From NCBI GenBank assembly GCA_003583745.1, contig QXPY01000006.1:1-64000 (forward strand): a stretch of DNA of 64,000 nt, read 5' to 3'. This DNA comes from Rhodocyclales bacterium GT-UBC (GTDB taxonomy: Bacteria > Pseudomonadota > Gammaproteobacteria > Burkholderiales > Rhodocyclaceae). The position numbers and the translations under genes are program-made. A model generated the notes under the pieces. The model ran no database searches. It was given only the letters and a program-made list of their open reading frames with translations, and was not told where the DNA came from. Positions 2,291 to 39,811 of the stretch are shown here, one piece after another; positions within the stretch are counted from its first letter, which is position 1; the number at the start of each line of letters is the position of its first letter.

Positions 2291-3937
2291 TCACATGTTC
2301 GGATAGGTTGGCCCTTCGCCACCTTGTGGCACAACCCACGTAATATTTTGTGTTGGATCCTTGATGTCGCAGGTTTTGCAATGTACGCAATTCTGAGCAT
2401 TGATCTGTAGGCGCGGTGCGCCATTGTTATCTGTTTCCACAATCTCATATACCCCTGCCGGGCAAAAGCGTTGTTCCGGGGCGTCATAGCGCGCCAGGTT
2501 GAGGGAGATTGGCGTGGTGGGGTCCTTAAGCTGCAAGTGACAAGGCTGGTCTTCTTCGTGATTGGTGCTGGAGAGGAAAACCGATGACAGGCGATCAAAC
2601 GTCAATTGCCCATCCGGTTTGGGATACGTAATGGCTTGGCATTCGCTGGCCGGTTTCAGTTTGGCGTGGTCTGGCGTCTTGTTACGGAGCGTCCACGGTG
2701 CATTTCCGCCAAAAACGATCTGATCAATGCCAAACATCAATGAGCCCAATTTCAGCCCCTTGTTCATCCAGGGCTTGAAGTTGCGTGCCTGGTGAAGTTC
2801 CTTATGGAGCCAGCTCTTTCTGAATGCATCCGGATAGGTGCTTAGTTCATCGCGTTGGCGTTCCGCAGCTAATGCGGCGAAGCACGCTTCAGCGGCCAGC
2901 ATGCCCGACTTGATGGCGCAGTGCGATCCTTTGATGCGCGCGGCATTGAGGAAGCCAGCGTCGTCGCCAACCAACAGGCCGCCGGGAAACACCAGCTTGG
3001 GCAAAGATTGGAGTCCGCCTGCGGCAAGGGCACGTGCGCCATAGGAGATGCGTTTGCCGCCTTCCAGGAATTTGCGGATTGCCGGGTGAGTTTTGAAACG
3101 TTGAAACTCTTCGAACGGCGAAAGGTAGGGGTTGCTATAACCGAGGCCGACAACAAAGCCGACGGCTACCTGATTGTTTTCCAGATGGTAGAGGAATCCG
3201 CCGCCATAGGTGTCCGCTGCCATGGGCCAGCCACCGCTATGCACGACCAGTCCGAGTTGGTGCTGCTCGGGCTGGATTTCCCAGAGTTCCTTGAGTCCGA
3301 TGCCGTAGGTTTGCGGATCGACGCCATCATCCAGTTTGAAGTGGGCTTGCAGTTGTTTGCCGAGATGGCCACGGCAGCCTTCGGCAAAGAACGTATATTT
3401 GCCGTGCAGTTCCATGCCCATCTGGAAGTTAGGGCCTTCACTCCCGTCGCGCAGGCGTCCCATGTCACCGGTTGCAACCCCCTTGACGGCACCGTTCTCG
3501 TCAAACAGGATTTCCGAACCTGCAAAGCCGGGATAAATTTCGACCCCGAGTGCCTCCGCCTGCTCGCCTAGCCAGCGGCACACGTTGCCAAGTGAAACCA
3601 CATAGTTGCCTTCATTGTGGAAACATTTGGGGAGCAGGCTGTTCGGAATTTTGGTTGCGCCGGTTTCGGTAAGAATAAAGAAACGGTCCTCAGAGACAGG
3701 TGCATTCAACGGGGCGCCATCTTCTTTCCAGTTCGGGAGGAGTTCGCTCAGGGCGCGCGGATCCATGACCGCGCCCGAAAGTATGTGGGCGCCGATTTCG
3801 GCACCTTTCTCGATCAGGCAAACGGAAATCTCCTGGCCTGATTCGATTGCTTGTTGCTTCAGTCGAATGGCCGATGCCAGACCGGCAGGTCCACCGCCAA
3901 CGATAACGACGTCGAATTCCATGGCTTCGCGTTCCAT
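2291..3937 (-). CDS. Electron-transfer flavoprotein:ubiquinone oxidoreductase
   Basis: This protein passes electrons from reduced ETF (fed by acyl-CoA and related dehydrogenases) to ubiquinone at the inner membrane. The 548 residues begin with an FAD-binding GGGPAGLASAIRL motif. The C-terminus carries the four cysteines of the [4Fe-4S] cluster (CPAG, then CVHCKTC). Length and domain order match the full-length Etf-QO family. The chosen ATG has GAGGAGG just upstream; an in-frame ATG five codons later is possible. The gene lies next to fabI and is divergent from a thioesterase, so it sits in a fatty-acid context. The etfAB genes are not in the window. Confidence 0.95.
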   Translation of the reverse strand: MEREAMEFDVVIVGGGPAGLASAIRLKQQAIESGQEISVCLIEKGAEIGAHILSGAVMDPRALSELLPNWKEDGAPLNAPVSEDRFFILTETGATKIPNSLLPKCFHNEGNYVVSLGNVCRWLGEQAEALGVEIYPGFAGSEILFDENGAVKGVATGDMGRLRDGSEGPNFQMGMELHGKYTFFAEGCRGHLGKQLQAHFKLDDGVDPQTYGIGLKELWEIQPEQHQLGLVVHSGGWPMAADTYGGGFLYHLENNQVAVGFVVGLGYSNPYLSPFEEFQRFKTHPAIRKFLEGGKRISYGARALAAGGLQSLPKLVFPGGLLVGDDAGFLNAARIKGSHCAIKSGMLAAEACFAALAAERQRDELSTYPDAFRKSWLHKELHQARNFKPWMNKGLKLGSLMFGIDQIVFGGNAPWTLRNKTPDHAKLKPASECQAITYPKPDGQLTFDRLSSVFLSSTNHEEDQPCHLQLKDPTTPISLNLARYDAPEQRFCPAGVYEIVETDNNGAPRLQINAQNCVHCKTCDIKDPTQNITWVVPQGGEGPTYPNM

Positions 3938-13443: not shown

Positions 13444-15813
13444 ATGTCGCTGAATCAGACGGTGTTCGATGCCGCCGAACTGGAACGCATGGACGCCTGG
13501 TGGCGTGCCGCCAACTATCTTTCGGTCGGGCAGATTTACCTGTTCGCCAACCCGCTGCTCAAGGAACCGCTGCAGCGCGCCCACATCAAGCCGCGCCTGC
13601 TCGGCCACTGGGGCACGACGCCCGGCCTCAATTTCATCTACGTGCATCTGAACCGGGCAATCCGCCAGCACGACCTGAACATGATCTTCATCGCCGGCCC
13701 CGGTCACGGCGGCCCGGCGGTGGTCGCCAATACCTGGCTGGAAGGCAGCTACAGCGAGCTGTACTCGGATATCTCGCAGGACGAAGAGGGCATGCGTCGG
13801 CTGTTCCGGCAATTCTCCTTCCCCGGCGGCATTCCCAGCCATGCCTCGCCGGATACGCCGGGCTCGATCCACGAAGGCGGCGAACTGGGCTATGCGCTGT
13901 TCCATGCCTACGGGGCAGTGTTCGACAATCCGGATCTGATCGCCTGCTGCGTCGTCGGCGACGGCGAGGCCGAGACCGGACCGCTGGCCACCTCCTGGCA
14001 TTCCAACAAGTTCCTCAACCCGTGCCGCGACGGCGCGGTGCTGCCCATCCTTCACCTCAACGGCTACAAGATCGCCAACCCGACGCTGCTCGCCCGCATC
14101 AGTCAGCGTGAGCTGGAGTGCCTGTTCGTCGGCTACGGCTACAAACCGCACTTCGTCGAGGGCGACGACCCGGCCGCCATGCACCGACTGATGGCCGAAA
14201 CGATCGATCTGGCGCTGGCCGAAATCCGTGCCATCCAGTACCAGGCAAGGCAGGGCGGCGAAGTCAGCCGGCCGCGCTGGCCGATGATCATCCTGCGTTC
14301 GCCCAAGGGCTGGACCGGACCGAAAATGGTCGATGGCAAGCCAAGCGAAGGCTCCTGGCGTTCGCACCAGGTACCGTTCAGCGACATGGACAAGGCGGAG
14401 CATGTCGAACTGCTGGCCGAGTGGCTACAGTCCTACCGCCCGGCCGAACTGTTCGATGCCAACGGCCGGCTGATGCCGGAGATCGCGGCGCTGGCGCCGC
14501 AGGGCATCCGGCGCATGGGGGCCAATCCGTATGCCAATGGCGGCGCCTTGCTGCGCGACCTGCGCCTGCCCGATTTTCGCGACTACGCGCTGGCCGTGCC
14601 GGCGCCTGGTGCGGTAGTCGGCGAGGCAACGCGGGCGATGAGCGTCTTCCTGCGCGACGTGATGCGGCATAACGCCGACAACTTCCGGGTCTTCGGACCG
14701 GACGAAACGGTCTCCAACCGGCTCGGCGCGCTGCTCGAAGTTACCGAACGCAGCTGGATGGCCGAGCGCCTGGCCGACGACGACCACCTGGCGCCAGATG
14801 GTCGGGTGATGGAAATCCTCTCCGAGCATGCCTGCCAGGGCTGGCTCGAAGGCTATTTGCTGACCGGCCGACACGGCCTGTTCTCCTGCTACGAAGCCTT
14901 CATCCACATCGTCGATTCGATGTTCAACCAGCACGCCAAATGGCTCAAGGTCTGCAACGAGATTCCCTGGCGGCGGCCGATCGCTTCGCTCAACATCCTG
15001 CTCACTTCGCACGTCTGGCGTCAGGACCACAACGGTTTCTCGCACCAGGACCCGGGCTTCATCGATCACGTGGTGAACAAGAAGGCCGACATCATCCGCG
15101 TCTATCTGCCGCCGGATGCCAACACGCTGCTCTACGTCACCGACCGCTGCCTGAAAAGCCGCAACCTGATCAACGTCATCGTCGCCGGCAAGCAGCCGGA
15201 TCGCCAGTGGCTGGACATGGATGCCGCGATTAACCACGCCAGCGCCGGTATCGGTTTGTGGGAGTGGGCCTGCAACGACCAGCCGGGCGAGCCGGACATC
15301 GTGCTGGCCGCCGCCGGCGATGTCCCGACGCTGGAAATGCTGGCCGCCATCGACCTGCTGCACCAGCTGACGCCCGATCTGAGAATCCGCTTCATCAATG
15401 TCGTCGACCTGATGACCCTGCAGCCGCAGGAAGAGCACCCCCATGGCCTGTCCAGCGATGAATTCGATTCACTGTTCACCACCGACAAGCCCATCATCTT
15501 CGCCTACCACGGCTACCCCTGGCTGATCCACCGGCTGACCTACCGGCGCAACAACACCAACCTGCATGTGCGCGGCTACAAGGAGGAGGGCACGACGACC
15601 ACGCCGTTCGACATGGTTGTGCTCAACAACCTCGACCGCTTCCATCTGGTGATAGATGTCGCCAACCGGGTACCCAAGCTGCAGCCACAGGCCGCCCACA
15701 TCAAGCAGGCCATGCGCGACAAGCTCAACCAGCACACCCGCTATATCCACGAATACGGCGAGGATATGCCGGAGATTCGCAACTGGCAGTGGCCGGGGGC
15801 GGCAGGGAATTGA
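13444..15813 (+). CDS. xfp: Xylulose-5-phosphate/fructose-6-phosphate phosphoketolase
   Basis: This thiamine-diphosphate enzyme splits xylulose 5-phosphate or fructose 6-phosphate into acetyl phosphate plus glyceraldehyde 3-phosphate or erythrose 4-phosphate. The 789-residue length and order match Xfp: phosphoketolase signature [18 protein letters not shown]/Mg motif [16 protein letters not shown]-terminal transketolase-like domain. GGGAG precedes the ATG. No acetate kinase or phosphate acetyltransferase lies beside it, so use of the acetyl phosphate depends on genes elsewhere. The 157 bases before it hold no gene. Confidence 0.95.
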
Positions 15814-15911
15814 TGGTGATTATTGGGCTTTGGGGGCTGGCGATCACCCAAAGGCTGGCGGATGGAGCTTTGGAAGCGGCTTTTCGCGCAAGGTCCGTGT
15901 TGACCGCAGGA
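15814..15911. other. Gene-free junction between xfp and the cassette block, with alternating stems
   Basis: CTTTGGG, CCCAAAG and CTTTGG alternate at about 15829-15875, so two mutually exclusive hairpins can form. CTGGCG occurs twice nearby. The segment GCGGCTTTTCGCGC just beyond resembles the core of the attC-like site at 16993-17064. I see no T-run terminator and no clear recombination-site ends. It may be a decayed attC site of the last cassette. Confidence 0.35.
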
Positions 15912-16463
15912 TCAGAGCGCATTGCTGACCTTCCGTTGTTCAGAACTTGCTAGACGCCATCCCCAAAGCATCAGGGCAATGCCAGATGCAATAACGCCAA
16001 ATGCGAAATAGAAAAATCGCTCTTGCTGGGCGTGATATGCGCCCAGCGATTGCTCGAGACTCAACAGGTCTTCCCCTGCATGCTGAATCCGCCATGCCAA
16101 AGCGTCCGTGCGGCCAGCAATATCCTTTTCAGTAAACCAGACTGTAATCTCCGCTCCATCTTTGAGTTGAAGGAGGTTGGGGGTTGCATTGCAGTCCCAG
16201 ATAAAACCGTAGTTGTTGATCCGTGCGCCGACGTTGATGTTTCCGGATTGGACCGTAAACAACGCCCATCGGCCCACTCTCGATGGCGCATGTACCTCAA
16301 CGCGACCTACGAGAGAACCAGAAATCGGACGCAGGTCTCCAGCAGCGGGTGGCGGAAGGAAAAAGTGGAGAAGTAAAAACGCTATAACAGCTATGACGCC
16401 AATCACGGCCAGGAACAGCCCGAGTCCGAATTGTCGAATGTCGCCGAGGCTTCGCGGTCTCAT
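15912..16463 (-). CDS. Hypothetical membrane protein, probable cassette gene
   Basis: The 183-residue protein has two membrane segments: about residues 12-36 (GLGLFLAVIGVIAVIAFLLLHFF) and about 147-166 (FFYFAFGVIASGIALMLWGW). Between them is a soluble domain of about 110 residues, probably extracytoplasmic, with a single Cys (WDCNATPN). The family is not recognised. The start codon lies only 2 bases after the R' end of an attC-like site, and there is no clear Shine-Dalgarno sequence. It is the last gene of the cassette block. Confidence 0.7.
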   Translation of the reverse strand: MRPRSLGDIRQFGLGLFLAVIGVIAVIAFLLLHFFLPPPAAGDLRPISGSLVGRVEVHAPSRVGRWALFTVQSGNINVGARINNYGFIWDCNATPNLLQLKDGAEITVWFTEKDIAGRTDALAWRIQHAGEDLLSLEQSLGAYHAQQERFFYFAFGVIASGIALMLWGWRLASSEQRKVSNAL

Positions 16464-16465
16464 GT

Positions 16466-16538
16466 GCTTTAACGATGCAACTCAACGGACCACGGACGGC
16501 GAAGCTGACCGTTGGTCCGCTGGAGCGGGTTGTTAGTC
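16466..16538 (-). repeat. attC-like recombination site A
   Basis: Read on the minus strand, the site starts GACTAAC and ends GTTAAAGC, close to the RYYYAAC and GTTRRRY integron boxes. Between them CGGACCAACGG pairs with CCGTGGTCCG and leaves one extra unpaired A in the left arm. Such extrahelical bases are a hallmark of attC sites. The site starts 3 bases after the stop codon of the 16542-16973 gene and ends 2 bases before the next ATG. At 73 bp it is in the normal attC size range. Confidence 0.78.
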
Positions 16539-16541
16539 GAG

Positions 16542-16973
16542 TTACTGTTGAAAGGAGTTTTGAATTTGATCGTTCCAAGCAAAGCTATTCAAAACCCAGC
16601 CGGTTGGTGATTTGTAGAAAAAAAATACCCATGGCAAGGCATGCTTTGCAGTTTTCTCGACGTAGATCAGACGCAATATTGAATCGCCAGCTTTTCTTTC
16701 GTTGACCAATTCATAACCAAATGATTTGCCATATCGAACACCAAATTGGTCGCGCTGAGATTTGGTTTGCAAGGCCAAGCCTTGAAATTCCGATTCCGGA
16801 ATGACGACATATGGCTTAATTAAAGAAAAAGCGGCAGCAAGTTCGCCTTTTGCGACCTGGGCCATGAACTTTTCGCTTAGCTGCTTTGCTTCGGCTTCCG
16901 ATTTGAATGTGTCAGCGTATGCGGCGATAGAAATACTAAGTGCCGCAATTGCCATACCGAGACGTTTGATCAT
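16542..16973 (-). CDS. Hypothetical exported protein (DUF4019-like), probable cassette gene
   Basis: This 143-residue protein starts with a Sec signal peptide (MIKRLGMAIAALSISIAAYA, cleavage likely after AYA). The mature part has an amphipathic N-terminal helix (EAEAKQLSEKFMAQVAKGELAAAF), then a small alpha/beta domain ending WVLNSFAWNDQIQ. The layout resembles DUF4019-type periplasmic proteins, a weak assignment by eye. AAGGAG precedes the ATG closely. Attc-like sites flank it on both sides, which supports a mobile cassette gene. Confidence 0.78.
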   Translation of the reverse strand: MIKRLGMAIAALSISIAAYADTFKSEAEAKQLSEKFMAQVAKGELAAAFSLIKPYVVIPESEFQGLALQTKSQRDQFGVRYGKSFGYELVNERKAGDSILRLIYVEKTAKHALPWVFFFYKSPTGWVLNSFAWNDQIQNSFQQ

Positions 16974-16992
16974 GATGCTCCTTAATAATTTT

Positions 16993-17064
16993 GCTAACGT
17001 GGAATTGATTCGCCTGCGCGGCTTTTCACGCAGGTCGCCTCAAGAGAGAGCTTAGGGGTTGGAT
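16993..17064 (-). repeat. attC-like recombination site B
   Basis: On the minus strand the site runs from ATCCAAC (a perfect RYYYAAC) to GTTAGC. A central stem pairs CCTGCG with CGCAGG, and an outer TTGA/TCAA pair lies beyond an asymmetric unpaired stretch. At 72 bp it is almost the same length as site A. The next gene's AAGGAG and ATG follow about 20 bases after the GTTAGC end, the spacing expected for a cassette. Confidence 0.6.
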
Positions 17065-17143
17065 GGACCATTGCGCTTAAGCCTAATGACACGGCAAATG
17101 ATATAGGCATAACGCAAAAGCGAAAACCGGAATGCGCCACTAA

Positions 17144-17225
17144 GCAACGTGGAAAGAACGAATGCGGGGCTCTCTGTACCCAGCCAGGACTAAACAGCGG
17201 CTTTGATTCCGAGCGACGGGTTAGC
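17144..17225 (-). repeat. Possible degenerate attC-like site C
   Basis: On the minus strand it starts GCTAAC, overlapping the stop codon of the 17221-17694 gene. It ends ACGTTGC, matching the ACGTTAGC end of site B in context (TTCCACGTT is shared). Internal pairing is weak. About 80 bases with no gene separate it from site B. Confidence 0.38.
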
Positions 17226-17694
17226 GGTGATAGAACTTTGCATTTGTAATTCTGTCTGCAGGGGTAAAGCGCTCTAACGCGGCAGCCAATACCTCAAGAT
17301 TTTCATATCCCTCAAAACGCATTACTTCACCAGAACAGGTTGTAACGACTATTGATGCCAAGGCGATAGATTTGAACTGCAAGCGCAGGTTTTTAATTTG
17401 AGAGATGTCGACGGTGACAACGACATCCTTGTAGCTGACAGCAATTTTTCCTGCATTTTCGTCCAGTTCAAGAACGGGGTAGGCCCCGGCCCCTTCTTTG
17501 ATGATTTTGTATGTCCTGCGTATTGGCGGTGCGAACAGCAATAGACCAATTACTGGAAAAGCCATGTCCGACAGAGACTTTGCATCCAATAGCATTCTCA
17601 AGCAGGCGACAGACAGTGCTGTCATGAATAATGCGAAGAACGCTGATTTGCGGTTCTGTTTCTTTATGTGTTCAGTGGTGATTTGGAGTCGCAT
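17221..17694 (-). CDS. Hypothetical membrane protein with C-terminal PH-like domain, probable cassette gene
   Basis: The 157-residue protein has two closely spaced hydrophobic segments (about 18-38 and 44-60) separated by a short loop with Asp/Lys. A cytoplasmic beta-rich domain follows (YPVLELDENAGKIAVSYKDVVVTVDISQIKNLRL). The overall plan resembles small bacterial PH-domain-like membrane proteins, but this is only a fold guess. The stop codon is embedded in the possible attC site C. No recombination-type box lies directly upstream, so it may mark the proximal end of the cluster. Confidence 0.7.
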   Translation of the reverse strand: MRLQITTEHIKKQNRKSAFFALFMTALSVACLRMLLDAKSLSDMAFPVIGLLLFAPPIRRTYKIIKEGAGAYPVLELDENAGKIAVSYKDVVVTVDISQIKNLRLQFKSIALASIVVTTCSGEVMRFEGYENLEVLAAALERFTPADRITNAKFYHR

Positions 17695-18018
17695 GATGAC
17701 CGCTACGAGTTATAGACAAAAAAAGTCTAATATTCTTAAGCTTGTCCAATAAAGACAAATGTTGGACAGGCCGAATCGCAGGCTGCACAAGGCATACCGG
17801 GATTTCTTCTTCTATTCATTTCGAGGGGTAAAAGACATACTGGATAAGTTTAAACCTACCTCAATGGCATTTTTGCTGCAACCGGTGAGCCTTTTCCGGC
17901 AATATTCCGCAGCAAATGTCAAATTGGTAATAAATCTTTAATCTCAATGTGTTACATTGAGCGCTGCCCGATTTGGGGCATAACTAGTACAAATATGCGC
18001 CGAAGCGCAAAGGATGTT
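17695..18018. other. AT-rich intergenic stretch at the edge of the cassette block
   Basis: No supported gene is seen. A short open frame at 17759-17941 has no ribosome-binding site and no recognisable features. Two inverted repeats stand out: TAGAC-N7-GTCTA at 17713-17729 and TGTCCAA-N12-TTGGACA at 17743-17768. The second contains GTCCAAC on the minus strand, a perfect RYYYAAC box, so it could be part of an attachment site. Confidence 0.4.
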
Positions 18019-18198
18019 ATGAATCAACTTGAAGTGTTGCGTGAGAATGCAACGAAATTGTGTGCCGAGCACGGCGTGACCATTCAGCCTTATGGCAAGG
18101 TCTGGTGGCTGATCGGTAACGGCATCAACCGCGTTGTTGCCGAGCTTGCCGGGCTATGCCGGTCTGACCTGCAACCGCTGGTCGTGGCGGAACGCTGA
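18019..18198 (+). CDS. Small hypothetical protein (59 aa)
   Basis: The frame begins at ATG 18019, just after AAAGGA, and encodes MNQLEVLRENATKLCAEHGVTIQPYG followed by an amphipathic second half. It has a single Cys in each half and no signal peptide. A clean terminator follows 35 bases after the stop, which supports a real transcription unit. The family is not recognised. Its C-terminal part (WWLIGNGINRVVAELAGL) looks helical. Confidence 0.65.
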   Translation: MNQLEVLRENATKLCAEHGVTIQPYGKVWWLIGNGINRVVAELAGLCRSDLQPLVVAER

Positions 18199-18232
18199 CG
18201 CGCTCCTGGTCAGCTACCGATTTTGAATAACG

Positions 18233-18258
18233 AACCCGCATTTGGCGGGTTTTTTATT
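18233..18258 (+). terminator. Rho-independent terminator
   Basis: The stem AACCCGC/GCGGGTT with a 5-base loop is followed by TTTTATTT. It terminates the 59-residue gene upstream. Confidence 0.85.
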
Positions 18259-18448
18259 TGCTGCGTTTTCTGTCGGTCCAGCGCCGGCCTTCCTTGGCAC
18301 GTTCCGGGTCGCTGCGGCGATCGACAGCAGCACGGGCCTTTTGCTTGCGGTCGCGGCGAATGCGCAAGGTGGCGCCAACGTGCAACAGGGCGATGATGGT
18401 TGTCATGCCCAGGAAAGGCCAGGGTTGATCGATGATGTTTTGCAGCAT
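18254..18448 (-). CDS. Small hypothetical membrane protein (64 aa)
   Basis: Starting at ATG 18448, the protein has one hydrophobic segment (about residues 9-28, PWPFLGMTTIIALLHVGATL). A strongly basic tail follows (RIRRDRKQKARAAVDRRSDPERAKEGRRWTDRKR). An upstream in-frame start at 18493 would add 15 residues. Single-pass proteins with a long basic cytoplasmic tail are common but uncharacterised. The frame overlaps the convergent terminator slightly. Confidence 0.5.
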   Translation of the reverse strand: MLQNIIDQPWPFLGMTTIIALLHVGATLRIRRDRKQKARAAVDRRSDPERAKEGRRWTDRKRSK

Positions 18449-18596
18449 GGGCGCGACGGACCTTGGGTAAGGGTTGAACGTGCAGACTAACACCCTACGG
18501 GGTGAGCATTATTTCATTTAGATGATGGCGTTCACTGTGGAGGACTCAGGTTGGACCAGATGATCCCGAATAGGTGCCCTTGCTGAAGCAATCGGC

Positions 18597-19111
18597 TTAG
18601 TCGGCGCAATAAGCCTGCTGGCCGAAAAACGTGCAGTTGAAAAATTGCTTTTCCGGCTCCAGCCGGGATAGGCGGGCGGCGGTCCGGGCTTCGTAGTTGC
18701 GTACCATGTCGTTGCCCTGGTCGTTGTCGAGGGCGCTGAAAAACAGGTTGATCAACTCGGCTTCCTTGGCTTCGGCTTGTTCTTCGCTGACGTAGCCTTT
18801 TGCTCTGATCAGCCAGACCTTGTGGAGTTCGCTGAAAATCGCCCGAAAGAACGGTCGGCTGCAGCGTCCCCAATCCAGATAGGAGAGGGCTTGGTAGTAG
18901 AAAGTCCGGGTGGATTCGCCGGAAATGGCTCGTGGGCTGTAGCGGCGGTTCCAGGCCAGGAAGTCGGCCGAGCAGTCGCCGTTTTTTTCGATGTAGGCAT
19001 TGATCGCCAACAGCGGGGCACTCGAAGCCGGCCAGGCGACTTGTGTCGAGGCCAAGAGCGCCAAGGCGAGGATCGTCTGGCGCCAGCGTGAATGATGAAG
19101 GACTTGTGACA

Positions 19112-19112
<1 letters not shown>
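18597..19112 (-). CDS. Hypothetical exported protein at the end of the urease operon
   Basis: The 171-residue protein has a signal peptide (WRQTILALALLASTQVAWPASS) and a helical mature domain with five cysteines (GDCSADF, GRCSRP, FFNCTF, AYCAD), suggesting disulfides. The start codon overlaps the ureG stop by one base (TGATG), so it is translationally coupled to ureG. The family is not recognised. Its position suggests a role linked to urease or urea/ammonia handling, but this is inference from operon position only. Confidence 0.75.
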
Positions 19113-19732
<620 letters not shown>

Positions 19733-19736
19733 GTTT

Positions 19737-20423
19737 TTACGATCTGAAGAGACGGGAATATTGGGTTTCGTGGCGGGTGCAGGCCAGGGCGAAGGCCGGC
19801 GTGAAGTTCGACCAGGCCGCCTCCGGCAGCGTTAATGCGCTTTCGGCAACCGCCGGGATGCGCCGGCCCAGGTCGGCCAGCAGACGCTGGCCGGAGGCCT
19901 GGCCGAGCGGCACCGCCTTGAGCGCGGCCATCACCTGGTTTTCGGCCCAGGACCAGAGGTAGGCGCTGAGGGCTGGTAAGGTTTCGATCTGCCAGCTGGC
20001 GGCCAGCCCGGCCCAGCCGGTCGGAAAGGCGATTTCATCGAGTTCGCCGAGCGTGCGCTCGACATCGGTCAGTTCGTCCGAACGAAGGTCGCGCACCAGG
20101 CGATGCAGCGAAAAGCCCATCTGCGCGGTTTCGGCGCGCAACTCGGCGGATTCGCGGCTGGCCAGGAATTCCGCGTTCAGACGGCGGATTTCGCTGCCGT
20201 CTCCAGCTGACCAGGCGGCCATCAACGCGGCAAGCAGCGGCGCTTCGTAGCGGCCGATGCCATGCGCCATCAGATCGCCGATCCAGCGCCCGGCGCTGGC
20301 TTCGTCGTGGATGGTGCCGACTTCGACCGCCCATTCCAGACCTTGCGAATAGGTATAGGCGCCGACCGGCAGCGCGGGGCTGGCCAGTTGCAGCAGGCGG
20401 GCGAGCTGGAGCGAAGGGGTCAT
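19737..20423 (-). CDS. ureF: Urease accessory protein UreF
   Basis: This all-helical scaffold of the UreDFG nickel-insertion complex activates and gates UreG. The 228-residue protein begins [34 protein letters not shown], the UreF signature start. The frame extends further upstream only into ureE sequence in another frame. The ATG lies 20 bases after the ureE stop. Confidence 0.95.
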
Positions 20424-38836: not shown

Positions 38837-39811
38837 ATGTTGTTCATCACCAATCGTTTTCCCAAAGGGTCCATCCAGACCCGGGCCGGCCGCAATTTCG
38901 AGTTCGATCTGAGAAACAATGCGCCGAGCAATTCGGTGTTCTTTTGCGAACGCAACGATGATGGTTCGCTGGTTGAAGTCGGTGGTCTGAATTTTCTGTC
39001 GCGTCTGAAAGCCTCGGACTATCGTCAAATCCTGCTCTACATCCACGGCTTTTCCAATTTGCCGGAGGATGTATTTGCTGCCGCAACCGAGTTTCAGGCA
39101 TTGTGCAACGGCAAGGACACCGGCGAAGTGCTGGTCGTCCCGGTGATCTGGCCCTGCGACAACGATCTTGGCATCGTCCAGGATTACTGGGATGACCAGA
39201 AATCGGCCGACGGCAGTGCCTTGTCGCTATCCCGCGCACTGTGCCGCTTTCTCGAATGGCGGGAGTCGAGCCGGAACGACCCGGGCGATCCCTGCCTGAA
39301 GCGGATCAACGTACTCGCCCATTCGATGGGTAACCGGGTCTTGCGCGAAACGCTGGCGACCTGGGAGCGCTACGACCTGACCGATGGCGTGCCGCTGATC
39401 TTTCGCAACACTTTCCTGGTGGCGGCGGATATCGAGAACGAGTCGATCCATCGCAACGAACGGGGCAAACTGATCGCCGATGCCTCGCGTAACGTGGTGG
39501 TTTATTTTGCTTCCGACGATCTGGCGCTGCGCGCCAGCAAGGCCGCCAACCTGAAGAACAAGATCGCCTCGCGCCGTCTCGGCCACACCGGGCCGGAAAA
39601 CATGGATCTGACACCGAAGAATGTCTATGTCGTCGATTGCGACGACGTCAATAACGCCTACGACAATCCCAAGGGGCATTCGTACTTCCGCAGCGGACGC
39701 ATTCATGGCCAGCCGGGGCTGGTCTTCGAGCACATCTACGGTTGTCTGAAAAGCGGCCGGGTCTTTCCGGAGGATGAGACACGCCGCTCGACCATCATCC
39801 GCGAAGCTTGA
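38837..39811 (+). CDS. Alpha/beta-hydrolase family protein (DUF900-like)
   Basis: The 324-residue protein lacks a signal peptide. ILLYIHGFSN forms the oxyanion region, and the nucleophile Ser is in NVLAHSMGNRVLRE. The DUF900 assignment is by overall pattern. AAGGGGG precedes the ATG at 38837. The gene is convergent with the yfi operon. Function unknown; lipase or esterase activity is plausible. Confidence 0.8.
   Translation: MLFITNRFPKGSIQTRAGRNFEFDLRNNAPSNSVFFCERNDDGSLVEVGGLNFLSRLKASDYRQILLYIHGFSNLPEDVFAAATEFQALCNGKDTGEVLVVPVIWPCDNDLGIVQDYWDDQKSADGSALSLSRALCRFLEWRESSRNDPGDPCLKRINVLAHSMGNRVLRETLATWERYDLTDGVPLIFRNTFLVAADIENESIHRNERGKLIADASRNVVVYFASDDLALRASKAANLKNKIASRRLGHTGPENMDLTPKNVYVVDCDDVNNAYDNPKGHSYFRSGRIHGQPGLVFEHIYGCLKSGRVFPEDETRRSTIIREA

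Follow-up and report, generated by a model that had tools for sequence, protein, structure and literature searches.

A probable decaying integron cassette array, without an integrase of its own, between xfp and the urease genes of Rhodocyclales bacterium GT-UBC

The locus described here raises the question of how an AT-rich group of genes came to lie between xfp (end at 15813) and ureG (19112-19732) and the urease genes, names given in the first-pass annotation. In the window, by which we mean the whole 64 kb stretch of DNA that was analysed, G+C is 61.8%, against 49.2% for 15871-17706, as expected from that annotation, which had described an AT-rich block in GC-rich surroundings. It had also reported three orphan genes on one strand, and three minus-strand open frames are indeed present. 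None of the three proteins had a Pfam family above the curated cut-off (the best was DUF2231 with E=0.036 and 14.6 bits against a cut-off of 26.4), NCBIfam gave no family and PADLOC no row for any of them, and PHROGs returned a single weak row at E=0.012. By eye, the product of gene 3 has two N-terminal membrane segments, that of gene 2 a signal peptide and a small exported domain, and that of gene 1 membrane segments at both ends. A DNA search of plasmid records with the block yielded no match, and in Rfam, 15700-18200 matched no attC family and had only two rows, both at chance level (E=2.7 and 4.1). We conclude that the block is very probably a decaying integron cassette array without an integrase. 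As read from the sequence, it holds four cassette units on one strand, and the features are as follows.

15876-17705, minus strand: the decayed array
15876-15916, minus strand: half attC of cassette D, first half only, second half missing
15912-16463, minus strand: gene 1 (cassette D), open frame of 183 aa
16466-16538, minus strand: 73-bp attC of cassette C, lying between genes 2 and 1, the only complete attC
16542-16973, minus strand: gene 2 (cassette C), open frame of 143 aa
16993-17057, minus strand: degenerate attC of fragment B, with TAAG against TAAC in relatives and arms that pair poorly
about 17058-17213, minus strand: decayed 3' fragment of cassette B, with likeness to contig C11
17211-17226, minus strand: attC stub of cassette A, its first 16 bp, identical to the start of L137:2002-2073 (minus strand) before diverging
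17221-17694, minus strand: gene 3 (cassette A), open frame of 157 aa
17706-17780, minus strand: probable decayed attI, whose last base is the G that precedes the first cassette

The attC sites were searched for with a covariance model, R1, built from 14 attC sites chosen by eye and with motif scripts, none of them from the window. The genome itself supplied five members, from contigs other than that of the window (L004 and L023 with two each, L024 with one); named records supplied five, from the surroundings of their intI genes (L030, L046, L065, L068 and L085), and congeners four (L135, L137, L138 and L139). Excluded were two 96-bp sites and another 72-bp site (L023:671-742) of the genome itself, a site of 59 bp (L136) and several script matches that were short or doubtful. 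R1 is a purpose-built model, distinct from IntegronFinder's attC model, and its calibration is rough. Across the whole 64 kb it gave six rows at E<=10, two of which are significant, lie on the minus strand and are 454 bp apart: 16467-16538 with 47.8 bits (E=1e-9 in the window, 7.6e-8 genome-wide) and 16993-17057 with 31.1 bits (E=1.1e-5 in the window, 8.2e-4 genome-wide). The other four rows scored 8.1 to 9.6 bits, and one of them, 15859-15897, overlaps the half site after gene 1, which at 8.3 bits and E=3.4 is not significant. A covariance search had been proposed in the first-pass annotation for its three attC-like sites, and these two significant matches are its outcome. Genome-wide at E<=0.001, R1 matched 13 places, five of which are members of the model: C11 has seven, C3 and the window have two each, and C19 and C20 one each. 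Of the 75 other congeners, 6 have a match to the good site, 15 to the degenerate site and 6 to the half site (by row count), which marks the three as belonging to dispersed repeat families.

Motif searches gave a looser picture than the RYYYAAC/GTTRRRY ends claimed for two of the sites. Two strict attC box-motif scripts found no site in the block or the window, and a looser script found 16466-16538 along with a 117-bp TAAC...GTTATGC pairing at about 17103-17223, which was rejected as a single site when later comparison resolved it into a stub and a fragment. An attC recombines as a folded bottom strand that IntI cuts. Folded as single-stranded DNA, the bottom strand of 16466-16538 reaches -14.7 kcal/mol, an energy attained by 5/200 shuffles; the values for 16991-17057 and 15857-15911 are -9.5 kcal/mol (31/200 shuffles) and -9.3 kcal/mol (15/200). 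Complete relatives of these sites, in L004 (a canonical attC of the same genome), L138 and L139, fold at -29.7, -22.1 and -20.3 kcal/mol, in each case with 0/200 shuffles reaching the energy. The two weaker folds, which are no better than those of many shuffles, and the empty result of the strict scripts would suit hairpins of the ordinary intergenic sort, formed between unrelated genes and having nothing to do with integrons. That empty result also counts against reading the block as a decayed array, as do the presence of only one complete attC and the lack of significance of the tail of gene 1. The hairpin explanation is nonetheless scarcely credible in view of the R1 matches and because the genes recur in other genomes together with attCs; it is contradicted by the finding of gene 1, and of the ends of gene 3, between attCs and beside other neighbours.

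This recurrence was seen among the congeners, where, with the genome itself included, 33/76 match part of 15830-18250 at E<=1e-4, many of them only through a small gene at about 18019-18198 or short pieces of attC. The small gene adjoins the array on the plus strand, and several congeners have relatives of it at the DNA level. Together with its sites, gene 1 is 86% identical over 661 bp to G250:C112:7340-8000, a copy with R1 attC matches on both sides (L179:2839-2910 and 3460-3528), in a draft genome with 7% listed contamination; on the same contig there is a partial match to IntI, which has 407 bits and covers model positions 1-277 of 315. The gene 1 protein is 82.5% identical to the G250 protein lying in that attC array, with dN 0.100 and dS 0.354 for the pair (NG86). 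Since there are fewer amino-acid-changing than silent changes per site, the protein was probably useful in the lineage connecting the two copies, with signs of purifying selection. The start of gene 3 lies behind two different attCs at two contig ends of G026 (L135 and L136), and its end is found at a third (L137), along with a complete attC of 72 bp, so that both ends of the gene are seen in this congener and its middle is not; one of the G026 contigs with a part of gene 3 (C36) carries IntI. In G271, a homologue of gene 3 that is 53% identical has an attC match (L180:2710-2775) at its start. Homologues of gene 2 were found in 5/199 other genomes of the order. One of these, in G057 (L154), is 36-38% identical and has attC matches on both sides, and the loci of the relatives in the other four genomes have no R1 match at E<=0.05, so that this family looks like a cassette in one place and elsewhere like an ordinary chromosomal gene.

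Recurrence within attC boundaries and with other neighbours, the mark of a mobile cassette, was thus found for gene 1 in G250 and for the ends of gene 3 in G026, and for gene 2 only through its distant (36-38%) relative in G057. All three genes are sporadic: with the genome itself counted, gene 1 occurs in 1/200, gene 2 in 6/200 and gene 3 in 1/200 genomes of the order, a sample that includes one other member of the genus only. The block as a whole was matched in 0/59 other relatives and in 0/75 other congeners, and absence from relatives had been named beforehand as support for the integron reading. Neither a lack of covariance matches nor family-wide synteny, the two observations named in advance as refuting an integron origin, was found. 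Matches to both xfp and ureG were obtained in 11/59 relatives, in each of them on separate contigs, and the insertion itself, as an empty site, could therefore not be seen; in four relatives that were checked, the match ends near the xfp stop.

Comparison with these relatives shows what has become of each unit. Genes 3 and 1 are intact and have broken attCs, gene 2 is intact and has a complete attC, and the remaining unit is a cassette fragment (B) with a mutated attC. The complete site, 16466-16538, has by eye one extrahelical base, as had been noted before, and one of its arms differs from canonical sites by two C-to-T changes, also by eye. Genes 3 and 2 are separated by 247 bp (16974-17220), in which lie an attC stub, a cassette fragment and a degenerate attC. 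Cassette A in congener G026 has its complete 72-bp attC, of which the window keeps the first 16 bases only, and the sequence then runs directly into the last part of cassette B. The longer form of cassette B, on C11, contains a 168-codon open frame (L023 1246-1752, minus strand), and 17033-17213 (181 bases) is 84% identical to C11:1227-1407, which forms the end of that frame. The degenerate attC behind fragment B is of a type seen in G012 and has a better-paired relative at L138:2192-2257. At the far end of the array, the half attC after gene 1 is 93% identical to G006:C15:13273-13313, which lies within a complete attC (L139:2247-2315). The first-pass annotation had listed three comparable attC-like sites of 73, 72 and about 82 bp. 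The 73-bp site is good, the supposed 72-bp site is the composite gap, and the third is a half attC; the array has one good site, one degenerate site and one half attC, together with a stub.

An integrase had been reported as missing, which holds for the locus and fails for the genome. With 13 IntI queries, the best match in the window was at 39698 with E=0.057, rows in the block had E>=0.49, and there was none at E<=0.1 in 15001-20000. In the genome, the one listed match over the TIGR02249 cut-off is an IntI on C11 with 494 bits, followed by canonical attCs towards the contig end; the 72-bp attCs beside it are of the same type as the site in the window. PF13495, which was used for the integrase at first, had given three genome rows, two of them over its cut-off, with C11, C3 and C2 proteins among the rows; the C3 protein reaches only 73 bits with TIGR02249. 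Genus-wide, 48/76 genomes have a match over the TIGR02249 cut-off and 71/76 an attC at E<=0.001 (the model members of this genome included), counts that come from draft genomes in which some IntI or attC may be missed.

With a complete integron on C11, the block could be a piece of that resident array, moved here through chromosomal rearrangement. The longer relative of fragment B does lie in the C11 array, and the neighbourhood varies, as the separate contigs of xfp and ureG in the 11 relatives indicate. We nevertheless regard this origin as very improbable, because the identity is only 84%, a different attC stands behind fragment B, and the sequence before the array is unlike the attI beside the C11 IntI.

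The sequence before the array bears more directly on how it arose. Alignment with G026 sets the first base of cassette A, and the block begins just past the G at 17706; at the junction, the TT of GTT lacks one T. The 75 bases before this boundary were compared with 75 attI candidates, some of them doubtful, taken upstream of intI genes: 46 at first (45 from 80 intI loci, the other 35 having no usable site, plus that of the genome itself) and later 29 from 40 congeneric intI-upstream regions, of which the 11 without a site of at least 8 bits were dropped. The best matches were L236 (G260) and L238 (G247), with an end-anchored alignment score of 18.0, and they share with 17706-17780, in this order, TGTCC, TTATTGGACA, ATTA, GAC and GTCTA. 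This score was reached by 2/2000 first-order shuffles and by 2/2172 GC-matched control 75-mers from loci away from integrons that still include overlapping copies of the window; one of the two (L151) is the window site itself by a position worked out by hand, which leaves 1/2171 other controls. An earlier control with real 75-mers, of which 18/1521 reached the score with a maximum of 48, was spoiled by loci that included true attIs. When both strands of 15800-18200 were scanned, the score was highest at 17706 on the minus strand. An ungapped 18-base matrix gave 8.0 bits at the junction, a value reached by 2/5945 G|T positions in the window, a background that is GC-richer than the site and contains the site itself. 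A first alignment test with the 46 attIs was weak, its score being reached by 15/1000 shuffles and 1/18 GC-matched real 60-mers, and an nhmmer model of these 46 found no match. Further out, the likely intI start codon in L237, as read from its sequence, is about 130 bases from the cassette boundary; at the corresponding place beyond the attI candidate the window has nothing like intI, and matches of L236-L238 to the window beyond the attI are at chance level. On this comparison, 17706-17780 is probably a relic of an attI.

The main rival to be weighed here is that no integron was ever at this locus and that the resident IntI, or another, made the array in trans by loading cassettes at a secondary site that is no attI and lies between xfp and the urease genes. 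Insertion by IntI at a secondary site is expected to leave a boundary after a G, and the left end of the array is indeed a cassette boundary after a G. The genome also has an IntI elsewhere, its only listed match over the cut-off being on C11, and attC matches occur on C3, C19 and C20 (E<=0.001) and on C21 (E=0.019) as well. The 75 bases before the boundary, however, resemble congeneric attIs beyond what most controls do, and four units in one direction at one spot would fit an array fed through an attI better, so that loading in trans, while the most serious of the alternatives, is unlikely. Because the array opens with a cassette boundary that has attI-like sequence before it, loss of intI is the likeliest origin, short of proof, and the array is probably the relic of a once complete integron.

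Other arrays in the genome and in congeners also stand apart from an integrase. At the start of C11 (L023 2586, minus strand) and on C19 (L024 4378, plus strand), cassette arrays are headed by strong attI-like cores of 22.1 and 18.9 bits, scores that none of the 5945 background positions in the window attains; the attI candidate next to the resident IntI is unlike these cores, and no intI-like sequence was found at E<=0.1 in L023 1-6000 or in L024. The interior of C3, a 356-kb contig, has an array with two strong attCs at C3:181585-182083 (L200 2586-3084), and among the matches listed there is no IntI over the cut-off on C3. In G026, the same attI-like sequence heads the arrays of C36 (L135 719, plus strand) and C15 (L136 2035, plus strand); the only listed G026 IntI over the cut-off is on C36, and the C15 copy seems to lack an integrase. 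In addition, a sequence beginning TATGGACTCCCCC is found at C11:23-52, C11:229000-229029, C19:48027-48056, C20:578-607 and C3:182472-182501, a few bases after TAAC and following what appear to be the first bases of an attC, with three of the five places near contig ends. It resembles a mobile element with attC as its target, presumably akin to the IS1111-attC group, and Transposase_20, which was looked for in the assembly because of this suspicion, gave no match. The intI-less arrays of the C11 start, C19 and the window might be satellite platforms, loaded and reshuffled in trans by one integrase, an idea that we consider improbable; if it were true, the array in the window would be an abandoned platform that is freezing into the chromosome.

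Among known kinds of integron, the block is nearest to a CALIN, a cluster of attC sites lacking an integron integrase, for which at least two attC sites must lie close together on one strand. With such clusters it shares a pair of attCs less than 4 kb apart on the same strand, with single genes in between and no intI found at the locus. The first-pass annotation had suggested a CALIN or the tail of a chromosomal integron, and the two same-strand R1 matches, the lack of a local intI and the recurrence of genes 1 and 3 bear this out. The block differs from the usual CALIN in being more decayed, with one complete, one mutated and one half attC and a stub, and in having a probable attI relic at its start. 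It shares attCs of the 72-73 bp type and one-gene cassettes with the complete chromosomal integron at the end of C11; in contrast to a complete integron it has no intI next to the attI, and its putative attI has only a degenerate resemblance to one, and of another type than that of C11. An In0, which has intI and attI without cassettes, is likewise a partial integron, and the block is the reverse case, in which the cassettes were kept and the integrase lost.

If the array is the remnant of a complete integron, an integron integrase would once have put the cassettes at the attI whose remains are at 17706-17780, and the intI gene beyond it would later have been lost with no intI sequence remaining. 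A deletion would then have taken most of the attC of cassette A and the front of cassette B, deletion would also have removed the second half of the attC of cassette D, and the attI and the array would be decaying through point mutations and small deletions. The one complete attC, 16466-16538, might still be usable in trans by the C11 IntI, and the broken sites are probably no longer usable by IntI, so that the array today is probably a frozen group of genes. Integrase-less remnants of integrons are a known kind, and the block leaves the knowledge of integrons unchanged. What it offers is a readable case of the decay of an integron array, in which complete relatives of the broken sites in congeners reveal which half of an attC, or which part of a cassette, was lost.
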